DNA of 64,000 nt from assembly GCA_027596075.1 (NCBI GenBank), contig JADGJC010000006.1, forward strand, positions 186,001 through 250,000, read 5' to 3'. This document shows positions 45,294 through 64,000 of the stretch, one piece after another (position 1 is the first letter of the stretch; each line of letters opens with the position of its first letter). The notes beneath the pieces are model-generated. The model made no database searches, was not told the origin of the DNA, and was given only the letters and a program-made list of their open reading frames with translations. The position numbers and the translations under genes were made by a program. Source of the DNA: Rhizophlyctis rosea (lineage: Eukaryota; Chytridiomycota; Chytridiomycetes; Rhizophlyctidales; Rhizophlyctidaceae).

Positions 45294-48760
<3,467 letters not shown>

Positions 48761-51370: not shown

Positions 51371-53284
51371 ATGGCGCCAGCCAACGCGACGGCGACGAAG
51401 AAGGCGGCACAGCCTAGCAGGAAGGGCAAGAAGGCTTGGAGAAAAAACACTGATGTTGCGGACGTGGAGGAGACGCTGGACGAGCTGAGGAATGAAGAGC
51501 GTCTGGGGTGGGTAAACATACGAATATTGAACTAATATATGGCATGTTCTTCAACTTACTCGGTTCCATCAATAGAGGAAAGCTGCACGAGAAGAAGGAC
51601 GAAGACCTTTTCTTCACTGACAAGAAAGGAGACGAAGAAGGTGTGGTATATGCAAAGTTGTATCGGCGCGTAAAGGCGGAACCTAACACGCAAACCTTAC
51701 ACAGTTCGCCAAAAACTACGAAGCCGTCCTCTTCGCATTGACGAAATCCTCCGCCCACAATCTGCTTTCGATGGAATCCGTTCTCGCCCCACCGCACCTT
51801 CCGCCAAACCCGCACCATCGTCAACTGGGAAAGCTAGGGCTATCTCAAAAACCTTGGTGGCGCAAGTTGAAGAATTGTCGAAACGCAAGAGAGAGGCGGG
51901 CTTAGGCCCCGGCAGTGCAAAAGCTACGAAGAAGAGACGGTTGGATGAGAAGAGGGCTGAGCTGAGGAAGGCGAAAGGCGGATTTGACTTATGGGATGTT
52001 CAGGGTAGGCTCGGGCATGAAGTTCAATTTCAGGGATAGCAACAATTCTAACATAGGGTATTTAGATAAAACTGCGGTTACGCACGAGGAAGAGTATTTG
52101 GAACCCGTCAAAGTCAAGCCAGTAAAGGTACTTCGGGTCATATCACCCCTTTGTCCTCTGTATATGGTGTCCTGATACCGTCATCTTAGAAACCAAAACT
52201 GCCGGATCAACGACCAGCTGCCATTCGTGCGGTTGAGCCAACACATCCTGGTATCTCGTACAACCCTACTTTCGATGATCATCAGGTACGCAACGTGTAT
52301 GTTGGATTCATGTAGGCTTTCCGTCACTAACATCTGTGCATAGTCTGCCTTGCAAGCCGCAGTAGATGAAGAGGAGCTGAAAGAAAAGCGGAAGGAGGAG
52401 ACGGCGAAGAAGATGTCTTACCCAGCTGAACTTGACGAATTGGTGAATACAGTCAAAGCCATTGACTCAGTCTGAGAACAACCGGGTGTTGACCTCACAT
52501 TCACCGAAACAGGATGAAGAAACATTCTTCGACGACTCAGACGAAGAAGAAGAAGACGCAACCCCCGACCTAGACGTAACGGAAGCCGACGGCGCAATCA
52601 GCGAAGCCGAAACAGACGGTCGAAGCTTCACAAAACCCGTCGCAGTAGAATCTCGCAAAACGAAGGTGCAGCGGAATAAAGAGGCGCGGTTGGCGGAGAA
52701 GCGGCGGGAGGAGGAGAAGTTGGCGGAGGAGAAGAAATTGTTGAAGCAGTTGAATCGGCTGGGAGAGATTAAGAAGCAGGTGTCGAAGGAGGAGCAGAAA
52801 AGGTTGAGGAAATTGGAGGAGAGGGCGAAGGCGGAGGCGGAGGCGGCGGCGACGTTGACGAGGAGGGTTGGGCCGCATGAGTGAGTTTGTGGTGGTTTGT
52901 GGGGAGTTTATACGGTTTTATGATGTTGACTGGTATCTGTGCTGTAGGTTCAAGCCGGCACCTATGGACATTCAACTAACAGAAGACTTGGCGGACTCTT
53001 TGCGAGAGCTTAAGGTACAATTTTTGGACATTGAATGCGTCTCCCGTTTTTATCATCTAACACCGTCCTTCAAAAGCCGGAAGGAAATCTATTCCAGGAC
53101 CGCTTTTTGAGCTTACAAAAGCGATCGCTTATTGAGACGCGTGTGCCCGTGAGGTTAGTATTTGTCTTTCGTTCTGTGACGCCATACATCTCTTTCCTAA
53201 CATGCTTTCCTCATTCGCTGCAGCAAACGCCTCAAGTACAAACGGAAAGAAATGGAAAGTCACGACTACAAGCGATTCAAATAG
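51371..53284 (+). CDS. NOP53: NOP53 (GLTSCR2/PICT1), 60S ribosome biogenesis factor
   Basis: Nucleolar protein that recruits the exosome cofactor Mtr4 to pre-60S particles. The ATG at 51371 gives an Ala/Lys-rich start, then the family signature SRKGKKAWRKNTDVADVEET and LDELRNEERL. Exons continue KLHEKKDEDLFFTDKKGDEE, LTKSSAHNLLSMESVLAP, VAQVEELSKRKREAGLGPGS, then YNPTFDDHQ and LQAAVDEEELKEKRKEETAK. An acidic patch (DDSDEEEEDATPDL) precedes a Lys/Glu helix block (RLAEKRREEEKLAEEKKLLK). The conserved C-terminus is split over small exons: FKPAPMDIQLTEDLADSLRE, PEGNLFQDRFLSLQKRSLIE and KRLKYKRKEMESHDYKRFK, with TAG at 53282-53284. About nine exons. The order and motifs are those of NOP53. Confidence 0.92.
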
Positions 53285-53522: not shown

Positions 53523-56500
53523 TCATGACGCTATGCTGCTCTTCCTATTTACATACCTAAAGAAGTCCGCTACCAAGTACAGCGACCCGCAAACTACAAT
53601 CAAAGACAGCCGCTCATGCCCCAATGCAATCATCGCTTCCTCCACATCAGCAACCTCAACACACTCGACATCAGGCAAGACCTCCCGTGCACGTTCTCGC
53701 AGCGCTTCAGTGGCAGCAGGCCGGATCCAGGGCATCTGCTCAGGTTGCGAAAACGGCGAAAGAAATAACCGATCCCCTTTACTCAAAAGCGCCCTAAACA
53801 ACCCACTCGCATCCTTCCCAGCCGTCATCCCAATAACCCACGTCACACTCCTCCCACCAACCTCCTCCCGTCGCAAATCAACAAACTCCGCCAAAGCCTC
53901 CGCAGCCTGCAAATTATGCGCCCCATCAACAAGCACCTTCCCAACACCCCCAACATCCACCCACTCCAACCGTCCAGGCCACCTCACCCCCTCCAACCCA
54001 TCCACAACCGCCTCCCTCGAAACCCTATCCCACCCCCTCCTCCTCAATACATCCAAAACCCTCACCGCAGTCGCCATATTCCCTCGCTGGAACTTGCCAT
54101 TCAAATTGACTCTAACCCTAATCTCCTCCCCACCAAATTCACACCTCATCCACCCTTCCTCCTCCTCCCCCACATCCTCAACAACCTCAAAATCCCGACA
54201 CCCAACCCCCCTCGCCTTACTCTCCAAAACCCCCAATACCCCCTCCTCCCGCTGCACCCCAACCACAACCGCACTATGCGGACTCTTCACAATCCCCGCC
54301 TTCTCCCCCGCAATCTCCCCCACCGTCCCCCCCAAAAACTCAACATGGTCCAACCCAACACTCGCAAAAACACATACTTCAACACCCTCCGCATCACAAA
54401 CATTCGTCGCGTCCAATCGTCCACCTAAACCGCATTCCAAAATCGCTATATCGATGTGGTGTTGCTTGAAGGTTAAGAAAGCAACACAAGTCTGTGCCTC
54501 AAACGTCGTAATTTCTAGCTCCAATTCCTGAGCACGGGTCAAGACTCTCGATAGCGTAGCGTCATATTCCGACTGCGATATAGGTTCGTCGTTGATATGT
54601 ATCGCGTCAGAAGTATGAAGGAGGTGCGGGGAGTTGAACCGTCCAGTCCTATACCCCGCCTTTGTCAAAACCGCCGAAACAGCCGCACATATCGATCCCT
54701 TGCCATTCGTTCCCGCCACATGAACGACTTTCAATCCTCGATGCGGATTATCGAGCCCGTCCAATAATCGAGATATGTTTTCCAACCCAAGCTGGATGAC
54801 GCCCTTCGCGACAGCTTTCGCTTTCTCTTCCCCGCCACTTCCATTCAGAGTAACAGTACTACCATTAACAATCCCACCCGCACTCTCCCTCCTCCCATTC
54901 ACCCCTCCCTCCTCCTTCTCCCCACCCTCCCCCGCAATAGCAAGCCCCTGAATATACCACTCAATCATCGCCCGATTCGTATCCGCATTCTCAATCACCA
55001 TCTTCTCCATCCACACCTGAACCCTCTTACACGCCTCCCCAATCTCCTTCCCCTTCAACCCCGGATGATGCTTCTGCACCAAATTTCCAATACTGATCGC
55101 CTGCTTCGGTGCCTGCACTTTCTTCTCCGCTCCTTTGATCCCTACCGCCGACACTTCGCGTAATGTGCCGGTGATCGGTATAGGTTCAGCTAGAGGGGTC
55201 CACTCGGTGATGTCGTTACTTTCTTTTGCTTTTGCATCGGGGGCGAAGAAGAGCGTGACGTGTGGGGTATCGTTGAAGGAGAGGAGTGGGAGGTGGCATG
55301 GGTCGGATTCGACTTTGATGGCGGTTATGCGGTTGGGTATTTGGCCGATGGCGGTGGCGAAAGCGTGGACTGTTGCGCCTAATCCTCCCATTGGTTCAAC
55401 GTACTTTTCTTGTGCTGGACCGAGACATATTGTGATATGATCGGCGGAAACGGTCCATTTTGCCGGTCGTGGTGTTAGAGAGAGGAGACGTTCACTGGAC
55501 TGCGCATCGAGACACACAGCGGTGTACTTTACGCGCTCCGCAAGATCTATCGGCTCACGGAAGAATGATGCGCTCGTCCTCCTGGGAAGAGTCAACTTGT
55601 TCGTCTTCCGCAAATTCTTCACGCATCCTTCCTCCCCATCCCCACCGATCTCCTCACATTCCTGCGCAGCAGCAGCCTCCTCCAGATCTCGTCGGCACTT
55701 TGCGATTCTCTCGTTCGACCGGCTTACTAGATCTACCACCAGTGACTTTTCCAATTCTTCAGGCATCTGTTGCTCGAGAGCTGGATCGTGCTGAATAAAG
55801 TGACAGTTGAAAGTCTCGATTCGTTGCTTCTTTTGCAAGGCAGTGAGTTCGGACGTGAAGAAGTTCAAATGCCGTGACCGGTCATCGAAAAACTCGACGT
55901 GTTTGATGGAGGGTATAGATTGTAGGAGATTTCGGAGGACTGCTACTTTGAAGTCGAGGGTGGTGGGATAATGACGAGGCTGTGTTGGGTCGTGTCCCTC
56001 ACGGAAGAAGAACCTGTTGTGCGGCGGTTATGAAGATCCTACGGCAGCGAGTAAGTTGACGGAAAGCTTACAGATCAAAATGTAGTGGTGGTTCCAAGCT
56101 ATGCGCGATCTCTCGAATCCTTTCACTGAAAACATTGTGTCTTCTTCCTGTCATTAGGACCGATACGGTATCATCCTTTCGGCTGATAGATTCCCTCGCC
56201 GCACGAACCGTCTCCTCATCCCACCACGTGATACTAGGCTTTTCAGGTATGTAAGGTGCCGATAGGGTGCGACCGTCGGCAAACCAACCGCAATCTGCTA
56301 ACAGTGCTCCTAACAGCTCAGTATGCCAGAGTTTACGATTTGGCAGTGGCGATCGAAATAGGGTAGAGTCAAAGTCGAATATGAGCAGTCGGGTGAGGTT
56401 ACATCTTGACGGGGTGGAGAGTTTGCCTGTGCCGCCTGTGTCAGTTTCGACCGTGAAGGGTTGAAGCGACTCGGTCGAGTTTGGTTGGCTTGACTCCGGG

Positions 56501-56652
56501 GATTCCACCAACTGACAGGAAACTGCTACGGTTTCGGAAAATTCTGACAAGAGAGTGTGAGCTTCGTAATTCTGAGTGGTTAAGAGATGGTTTTTCAAAC
56601 TGAAGATACCTGAGATAAGGCGTTCATAGTGGAACCGCTCAGCTTCTGCCAT
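53523..56652 (-). CDS. Triple fusion: HAD phosphatase (RNA-repair 'Swiss army knife' type), 2H phosphoesterase, folylpolyglutamate/dihydrofolate synthase
   Basis: Exons 56072-56652 and 53523-56013 total 3,072 nt, 1,023 residues. Residues 92-97 (FDFDST) and LMTGRR (about 167-171) are HAD phosphatase motifs I and II; EFFDDRSRH (about 233-241) completes the HAD_SAK_1 pattern. A middle domain (about 350-490) has two H-x-T motifs, DHITIC (HIT 385-387) and PHVTLF (HVT 444-446), the signature of 2H cyclic phosphodiesterases. After a helical linker, residues from about 600 form a complete FolC-type ligase: VVHVAGTNGKGSICAAV (P-loop, 627-633), NSPHLLHTSDAIHIND, LECGLGGRLDATNV and VLVDGAHNLQAAEA. The second exon is one open frame from within the HAD domain through the ligase, so the fusion does not rest on a guessed intron. 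An optional intron near the N-terminus (donor at RLISG) is possible. Confidence 0.85.
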
Positions 56653-57735: not shown

Positions 57736-58888
57736 ATGAGAAGTAGAAATAATAGATTTGCCATTATATCGGCAGCAGTGCTTTGCTCTCTCATAACCAT
57801 GATGGCATGGTCCTCGCATAAACCTGAGCCAGTTGTCACGCCCGCTGGTAGGTTGGCCAATTTATAATGCTAAACTTTCTATCACTGCAGTTCCCCATAT
57901 CGTAAAGCATTCCATGCCTTCCACATATATCACTCATCTTGTCGTTGCTTACCTGGCAGATCTGTTTCGCGACGGAATGAGATGCGATTACCGTCCATCA
58001 GACCAAGTCCCACATATCATTCATCAAAGTTGGAAGACGACCGATTTACCAGAGGTCAGTCTCGTTCATAACGTGTCAATGCGGGCGAAGGACCCTGCCT
58101 AAGTACCTACCTTCACATCCAAAAATATCAGAAATTCCGCACCTGGCAACAAACCTGGAAAAACCACCACCCAACTTGGAAATACATCCTTTGGACCGAC
58201 GCCGACAACCGCCGCCTAATCGCAACCCACTACCCCTGGTTCCTCCGCTACTACGACTCCCTCCCTTCAAACATAACCCGCGCCGACGCATCCCGATACT
58301 TCTACATGCACCGCTACGGCGGCATATACGTCGACCTCGACTCAGAATGCCTAAAACCCTTCGACACCCTCCTCTCCGATGCACCAGCCTACGTCGCCAC
58401 CATGACGGGCAATCCCTCCTGGGACCATGATATCCCGAACGCGTGGGTGGCGAGTAGGAAGGGACATCCGTTTTGGTTGTTTGTTGTTGCGCAGATTATG
58501 GGGTTTTTGGATAATAGGGGCGATGGGGGTGCGGAGGCGGTGACGGGGCCGATTGCGTTGATTAAGGCTTGGAGGGCGTATTATGCGGATGTGCCGGAGG
58601 AGGAGAGGGAGCCCGTGAAGCTTTTGGAGAAAGGTTAAGATTTTTTGCCATTTGCGTTTTATCGTGACTTGATGGAAGAGCTTAAAACTTCCCCGCACCA
58701 CAGGCATTATATACCCCTACGCCTGGATCAACCCCCCTAGAGAACAGTGGACCTGCTGGGGAGGTCAGTCAAACGGCGACTTCAATCCAGAAACGTGCAA
58801 AGTTGCCGTTAACGCAACGGGAAAACCTGAGGAGAAAGCTCACATGATCACATACTGGACCCACACATGGAATAATGAAGATAAATGA
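57736..58888 (+). CDS. Golgi-type glycosyltransferase with DXD motif (Gly_transf_sug/OCH1-like)
   Basis: Type II membrane enzyme expected to add sugars to glycoproteins or glycolipids in the Golgi. The ATG at 57736 sits in a perfect CCACCATG context and gives MRSRNNRFAIISAAVLCSLI, a short cytosolic tail and signal anchor. Exons then read DLFRDGMRCDYRPSDQVPHI, IHQSWKTTDLPE, FRTWQQTWKNHHPTWKYILW, TDADNRRLIATHYPWF, RADASRYFYMHRYGGIYVDL, and DSECLKPFDTLLSD. The motif GGIYVDLDSECLKP contains the D-x-D (DLD) metal site. Later come AWVASRKGHPFWLFVVAQIM, GPIALIKAWRAYYADVPEEE and, after one more intron, GIIYPYAWINPPREQWTCWG, ending ITYWTHTWNNEDK. The acceptor (mannosyl, inositol-phosphoceramide or other) cannot be told from sequence. 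Confidence 0.88.
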
Positions 58889-62109: not shown

Positions 62110-64000
62110 CTATAGGCTCAAATCAGGTGAACTCTGAACCAAATCGACTTCCGAATCCCCACCCCTTTCCTCCACCATCTCCATCCCCATCCCCACCCGT
62201 TCATGTACAAGAGACAATGTTTTGTTTCCCAACCCAGACATCCCCATCCCAACACCTCCCTTTGTTGTTATCGAAGGAATTCTTTGACCCTCCTCCTCAA
62301 CACTACCCTCCGAACCGGCCTTTTCCATCTCAGTAACTGCTCCCACCAACTTCAGTTGCTCCATTCGCATTCTCTTCCGTTCTTCTGTCGTGCCTTGTGA
62401 TTGAATTTCTCGCACGGCGTCATTCAAGGCGCTAACAGCGGCCTTTTCGTCTTCTGTTTGGGCTTCCCGTTGCATTTTGTCGGTGACGGCAGAGAAATGC
62501 CGGTGCATGGCTGCCAGGTGGCGTTCGACATCGATTAGGTTGGCAGCTTTTGGAGACGTTATGTCAGGGGAGGAGTTGTGAGTAGGTGATGGAGGAGTGG
62601 TTTTAGATGGCGATGTCTGGTTGATTGGAATCATTGGTACAAGGCCACCGCTGCCGTAACGGGAAGATGACCGTTTGCCGGTATCCAATGGTGGGGAGGT
62701 GAGATTATCTACGGACCATCCCCCTGGTGGTGGTTTCATGGCAATAGTTGGTGCAGGAGCGACATCGTCGTCTCCACCACCGCAACATGCCGCGAAAAGC
62801 CCTCTCCGTGGATGAGGCTGGTTCACGGCAACTACGCTAACACCAACATCATCATCTCTCGACCCATTCACTACCGCTCCTTCCGGCACCTGATTCAATG
62901 TCCCCCTCCTCGCTGCTCTATCCAAAGTCCCCATACTTCTACTCCCCCTCGCATCCGACCCCTCTGAAACATGCATACTGCTACCCATCGATATCCCCGC
63001 CCCACTCGTCCCACTAACAGTCGTACCCCCAAAACTCTTCTTCCTAACATCCTGCATACTAGGACTAGCCAACTTCATCCGAATGACCGACATAGACCTC
63101 TTCAACCCACTACTCCGCCTCCTAGCCTTCTTCTTCCTCCTCTCCTCCTCATCCCTCACAACAGTGTTCACCATCCCTTTGATCAACTCCATACACTTCT
63201 GCACCGACGGGTTCAGCGCACTCGTAAAAGGCTCTTTAACGCCATCGAATTCCGTCATGTTGGCAGCTTGTTGCATTGTTTTGCTTATGAGTGTGAATGT
63301 ACGTGCTTGTCGTGGTGGTGGGTGGTCGTCTAGGAGGGTCCAAAGTTTTGGACCGAGGATGGCGGCGGTGAAAAAGCGGAGGAAGAGGAAGGATGTTACG
63401 GAGGTGTAGGCTGTTGTTGGGGAGTTTGGGAATTGTGTGCGTGCTGTTTGGTATATTGTGGTGAGGACGCTGCGCATGCCGGAGGGGATGAAGATGTGGG
63501 AGGAGGTGATTGCTTTTGTTATTGTGATGATGTAGGCTGTTACAGATATGTGTGGACTTCTTAGTTTATTGTGAAGCATGAAATATGCACATGCAAAACA
63601 GCCGCGACCACTCACATTCCAAATTCTGCAGATGATCTTCCACCACTCTCTGATTCGTCTCCCCTTCCATCTTCATCGGATCAATCTCACAATCTTTATT
63701 CCATCTCATAATATCCCTAATATGGGATTGAAGAACTTCCCGCAAATAGTCCATTCCAATTAGCTTCATGTATACATCCAGAGTTTTCGTTGCCATGCTG
63801 GAAACACCACCCGTCAGCGGACTTTTTCCTTTCGCTCACCATGGCAAATTGGGGTCCACAAACCTATTCGCCCGAAACAACGTAGCAGGTTCTTTGCTAT
63901 CCAAAATCTCCTTCACGCAAAGATCCGTCACAAAATCCGACGCCGCATCACCCGGAGCGCATTCCGCGATTTGCAAGATGTGCAGTGCGGCATCTTCTTG
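62110..64000 (-). CDS. RasGAP, C-terminal part (5' end outside the window)
   Basis: GTPase-activating protein for Ras. The gene enters from the right edge: DAALHILQIAECAPGDAASD, VKEILDSKEPATLFRANS (arginine finger in LFRANS, with the Ser codon split by an intron at 63796-63874), then MATKTLDVYMKLIGMDYLRE and EIDPMKMEGETNQRVVEDHL. The next exon holds ITKAITSSHIFIPSGMRSVL, SVTSFLFLRFFTAAILGPKL and RTFTLISKTMQQAANMTEFD, the end of the RasGAP domain. A basic Arg/Lys stretch (EERRKKKARRRSSGLKRSMS), a disordered linker and a helical segment (NLIDVERHLAAMHRHFSAVT) lead to the stop at 62110-62112. The N-terminal half, where C2 or PH domains would lie, is missing, so the subfamily (RASAL, SynGAP or other) is open. 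Confidence 0.9.

Follow-up and report, generated by a model that had tools for sequence, protein, structure and literature searches.

The catalytic core of HAD phosphatases is marked by the motif set DxD, T, K and DD, and one family of this kind, HAD_SAK_1, occurs in many chytrids. The 2H phosphoesterases, in the relevant portion of PMC5434554, are defined by two H-x-T/S-x motifs. For folate synthesis, the portion of PMC1971073 concerned ascribes the last dephosphorylation of dihydroneopterin phosphate to a non-specific phosphatase. Term matching across open-licence papers recovered no assigned substrate for HAD_SAK proteins, nothing under the name HAD_SAK_1, and no paper on a fusion of HAD, 2H and FolC domains ('HAD' also matching 'had'). 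Here we describe a gene of the chytrid fungus Rhizophlyctis rosea that appears to combine all three. It lies in a window of 64,000 nucleotides, the whole stretch analyzed (positions 186,001 to 250,000 of contig JADGJC010000006.1, assembly GCA_027596075.1), and we read it, with a probability of about 0.7, as a real gene fusion in which a HAD-2H protein has been joined to a duplicated FolC, placing two predicted enzymes on one chain.

The gene is encoded on the minus strand (contig C534 of our set, in a 44.1-Mb genome of 634 contigs) and comprises three exons. Exon 1 (56610..56652) opens with an ATG at 56652 and exon 2 (56072..56543) carries the first HAD motifs; exon 3 (53523..56013) is a single open frame of 2,491 nt, within an open frame of 834 codons (53523-56027), which runs from the end of the HAD domain through the 2H domain, a helical C-terminal module and a linker into FolC and the stop codon TGA. 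This long exon had been reported in the initial annotation and is confirmed, with the remainder of the HAD domain, the two HxT motifs and the GTNGKGS, GGRLDATN and DGAHN motifs inside it. The two-exon model of 1,023 aa given with it does not hold, as it reads through an in-frame, stop-free GT..AG intron of 66 nt (intron 1, 56544..56609). With this intron and the 58-nt intron 2 (56014..56071) removed, the product is 1,001 aa long and identical, letter for letter, to a public R. rosea protein (P0001) labelled 'folylpolyglutamate synthase'; the junction created by removing intron 1, YERLISEFSE, agrees with the homologs in the alignment.

Of the three domains, the two outer ones are assigned by profile. 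The HAD_SAK_1 domain (55710..56376, interrupted by intron 2) matches PF10307 at 127.4 bits against a curated cut-off of 25.6 (E 7.9e-37), and its catalytic motifs, DFDST, TGR, FK and DDR, occupy conserved alignment columns. These correspond to DFDSTLF (56376-56356) and TGRRH (56151-56137), which we take to be motif I and the motif II region, followed by FKVAVL (55952-55935) and DDRSRH (55886-55869). A profile search of the contigs found PF10307 in this gene only. The FolC domain, i.e., dihydrofolate synthase/folylpolyglutamate synthase (DHFS/FPGS; 53526..54794), is complete, matching positions 1-399 of 400 of TIGR01499 at 310.5 bits against a cut-off of 162.65, with PF08245 and PF02875 likewise above their cut-offs and 1o5z and 1w78 as PDB relatives. 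Its GTNGKGS, GLGGRLDATN, DHVEFLG, EKAGI and DGAHN motifs, presumably those for ATP binding and of Mur ligases, are intact.

The 2H assignment (55146..55547) stands on its motifs and predicted fold, but not on profiles, as all 2H families remain below their cut-offs (PF08302 reaches 17.1 bits against 23, E 0.004), and a profile of 13 rows searched against PDB sequences recovered nothing related and no 2H chain. The two motifs read HITI (HIT within 55448-55428) and HVTL (HVT within 55271-55251), and both HxT motifs are present in 18 of 25 aligned rows. The predicted structure of this part adopts a 2H fold that lies closest to CNPase and to entry 6u05, a fungal RNA kinase, rather than to the Appr>p enzymes. 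Among the aligned HAD-2H proteins, those of Nowakowskiella and two Synchytrium species (P0005, P0137, P0141) lack one or both HxT motifs, and their 2H halves may be inactive. Downstream lies a conserved three-helix module (54945..55100), delineated by alignment and predicted structure, that is found near the C-terminus of unfused HAD-2H proteins.

The HAD-2H and FolC parts are separated by a low-complexity linker of 50 residues (54795..54944), predicted to be disordered. No in-frame stop codon occurs between the two parts, nor does any in-frame Met follow residue 521 ahead of the P-loop (606). The probability that a linker of 49 codons is open by chance is ~8% given the base composition, or 2.7% if the frame must also be right, figures that pertain only to this isolate; the domain matches lie far outside what chance would give. 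The same three domains in the same order recur in a protein of a second R. rosea isolate, HK097 (P0002, HK097_005566), which shows 60% identity with P0001 in alignment A1 (58% in the search) and has a linker of 35 residues, though its model lacks the HAD N-terminus. The domain content, order and fusion proposed initially are supported and are common to the proteins of both isolates, and the fusion looks real and old. In a full-length model of the window's protein (mean predicted local distance difference test 71.8, predicted template modelling score 0.51) HAD and FolC are mostly confident, the linker is disordered and 2H is poorly modelled, the underlying alignment being mixed; thus, we claim no domain interface.

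Among the protein matches listed, the fusion occurs only in these two R. rosea proteins. A search with the whole protein gave 203 matches; among the 120 listed, five contain PF10307, and the two of these that also carry Mur-ligase domains are both from R. rosea. With the HAD-2H part as query, confined to proteins of at most ~976 aa and hence missing P0001 and P0002, all 24 matches contain PF10307 and none a Mur-ligase domain. With the FolC part as query, the chytrid FolCs among the 120 listed of 7,999 matches are separate proteins, within the length limit of that search. Seven species have both halves among the matches listed, and the longest contigs of the two halves differ in size in six of them; in Phlyctochytrium arcticum the two lengths coincide (1,059,799), and both halves may lie on one contig. 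The Borealophlyctis FolC P0143 is marked as partial, with an open N-terminus. A Batrachochytrium salamandrivorans FolC (P0006) is annotated as joined to a PF02919/PF01028 protein, presumably topoisomerase I, and the sequence MATVQLGLERV just ahead of its FolC resembles a start of its own, which suggests a merged gene model.

The whole-protein matches listed also include 15 proteins combining FolC with other families that we take to be HAD (14 with PF13419/PF00702, one with PF08282): P0071, P0073, P0087, P0090, P0093, P0094, P0096, P0103, P0104, P0108, P0112, P0113, P0117, P0119 and P0120. These are bacterial or metagenomic, from Verrucomicrobiota in the three with a named organism (P0093, P0096, P0103), and FolC precedes HAD in the three whose sequence was examined (P0071, P0093, P0112). 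Further FolC fusions among the same matches involve the folate proteins PF01812, presumably 5-formyl-tetrahydrofolate cyclo-ligase, and PF01288 (HPPK).

Profile searches of the contigs placed FolC matches in the fused gene, in a stand-alone paralog (P0142, C277:35706-36932) and, in pieces, on C135, where a third FolC-like gene may encode FPGS. P0142 begins four residues ahead of the LGLENI shared with the fused form. Contamination is not favoured as its source, given its sister position to the fused FolCs and its public record as R. rosea HDV00_007038 on a contig of 40,288 nt, the length of C277, and the GC content of its locus (49%, against 50% in the window) speaks against it as well. A stand-alone FolC of isolate HK097 is absent from the 120 listed of 7,999 matches, which is weak evidence. 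Among 26 chosen FolC rows, whose three chosen outgroup rows do not fall on one side of the tree, the two fused FolCs pair as sisters (100/97), joined next by P0142 (97/93) and then by Borealophlyctis (100/98). The fused FolC clusters with other chytrid FolCs and may act as DHFS or as FPGS. The tree for the HAD-2H part, built from 16 chosen rows, likewise pairs the P0001 and P0002 halves (98/95), followed by Borealophlyctis (100/98) on a long branch. This sister placement in both trees fits one FolC duplication and one fusion predating the split of the two isolates.

Unique changes in the FolC half number 47:29, 46:34, 48:29 and 47:27 (window:HK097) against four outgroups (p 0.039, 0.18, 0.030, 0.020), and those in the HAD-2H half show no excess against five (p 0.20, 0.50, 0.89, 1, 0.89). 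The contrast between the halves falls below 0.05 in two of nine comparisons and is mostly not significant. A strong rate shift in the FolC half, large on the tree (branches of 0.76 and 0.25), was not adopted, the site counts giving only p 0.02-0.18; it is kept as a weak signal.

We propose that a FolC gene was duplicated in the Rhizophlyctis lineage and that one copy remained separate. The second copy, having lost its start codon, would have become attached through a flexible linker (35-50 residues) to the C-terminus of the complete HAD-2H protein, which other chytrids carry alone. The HAD-2H half would be one of the two-enzyme proteins to which the trimming of damaged RNA ends is attributed, with 2H opening a cyclic phosphate and HAD then removing the phosphate; the FolC half, given its intact motifs, would add glutamate to dihydropteroate or folate at the expense of ATP. 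Most likely, the two halves act as independent enzymes on one chain. Of the two inferences offered initially, that one transcript carries two jobs is the better supported. A link between RNA-end healing and folate metabolism is not established, because among the matches listed only two R. rosea proteins have the fusion, the genome has separate matches to tRNA-repair families and a separate FolC, and the open-licence papers searched gave no assigned substrate for HAD_SAK proteins. Genome matches to the tRNA-ligase CPD, Tpt1 and RtcB families (in pieces, some with internal stops, as expected across introns) and to GTP cyclohydrolase I and HPPK indicate that neither pathway visibly depends on the fused gene alone. 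If the halves are unrelated, the locus would still be a tidy case in which a metabolic enzyme was duplicated, one copy was taken over by another gene and the unfused one was retained in the same genome.

Several points weigh against a genuine fusion. The P0002 model extends beyond FolC, with a weak PIG-F match there (one member, E 0.031), and its annotation looks over-merged and may join separate genes; the fusion is read here from DNA and protein sequences, for P0002 from the protein sequence, and a single transcript is predicted. Evolution of the FolC half may be faster in the window than in HK097, a pattern that would be compatible with a relaxed requirement for this half. Further, a FolC-only transcript is possible, as any of the in-frame Met 507, 510 and 521 could start FolC with a long N-terminal tail. 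The over-merged model and the internal Met residues would fit two genes sharing one frame, in which HAD-2H and FolC are mainly separate products of alternative 3' ends or an internal start and their joined frame is fortuitous. We consider this unlikely: a separate HAD-2H would have no stop codon, Met 521, the nearest to FolC, is Ser in HK097, no AATAAA lies inside the gene on the minus strand (a weak test for fungi), and the domain order persists in a protein only 60% identical.

More doubtful still is the alternative that the HAD-2H half serves folate synthesis, for instance by taking the last phosphate off dihydroneopterin phosphate, such that two steps of one pathway would be joined. The non-specific phosphatase invoked for this step, in the portion of PMC1971073 dealing with it, and the 15 listed FolC-HAD proteins make the idea worth a test, if not likely, and the fusions of FolC to other folate proteins point the same way. 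Against it, FolC is absent from all 24 HAD_SAK_1 proteins found under the above length limit, the longest contigs of the halves mostly differ in size, and of GTP cyclohydrolase I and FolE2/MptA only the former is matched in the genome, leaving 2H with no obvious pterin substrate. We accord similarly little weight to the broader proposal that HAD-2H acts on a pterin or folate phosphate intermediate, or that it adjusts folate glutamation by sensing RNA ends with cyclic phosphates. Were it true, fungal HAD_SAK-2H proteins would belong to folate metabolism instead of, or besides, RNA repair. The fusion partner is a rare hint to the pathway of HAD_SAK_1 proteins, the phosphatase gap evident in that portion of PMC1971073 offers something concrete to test, and the bacterial FolC-HAD fusions are a lead to the phosphatase of folate synthesis.

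Two further candidates were set aside. FolE2/MptA makes a cyclic phosphate in archaea, and a corresponding pterin route through 2H and then HAD is not favoured, the FolE2 family not being found in the genome; HAD-2H as a stand-in for missing tRNA-repair enzymes is rejected, as tRNA-ligase CPD, Tpt1 and RtcB matches are all present.

The surroundings of the fused gene include a convergent Nop53-like ribosome-biogenesis exon (52450-52881, plus strand; PF07767, E 1e-13) and, upstream, a glycosyltransferase with a DXD motif (58075-58635, plus strand; PF04488, E 3.7e-21). The window also holds a Polo-like kinase 4 polo-box exon (45524-46567, minus strand; PF18409) and a RasGAP exon (62113-63672, minus strand; PF00616).

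In comparison with known systems, the chytrid 'Swiss Army Knife' HAD-2H proteins of Spizellomyces (P0122, 49% identity) and Powellomyces (P0123, 48%) share the HAD_SAK_1 domain, 2H motifs and helical module, but stop soon past the latter, where the window's protein runs on into FolC. With CNPase and the fungal tRNA ligase phosphodiesterase (PDB 4wca and relatives; 6u05) it shares the predicted 2H fold and two HxT motifs, though the sequence match is weak and a HAD phosphatase takes the place of the adjacent kinase or ligase domain. With FolC/Fol3 (1o5z, 1w78 and the paralog P0142) it shares a full-length FolC, including GTNGKGS, GGRLDATN and DGAHN, but its FolC lacks a start codon of its own and is placed behind HAD-2H. 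Finally, P0071, P0093 and P0112 of bacteria and metagenomes likewise have FolC and HAD on one chain, but with other HAD families and FolC first. The architecture brings known enzymes together in a new combination that is specific to this lineage.
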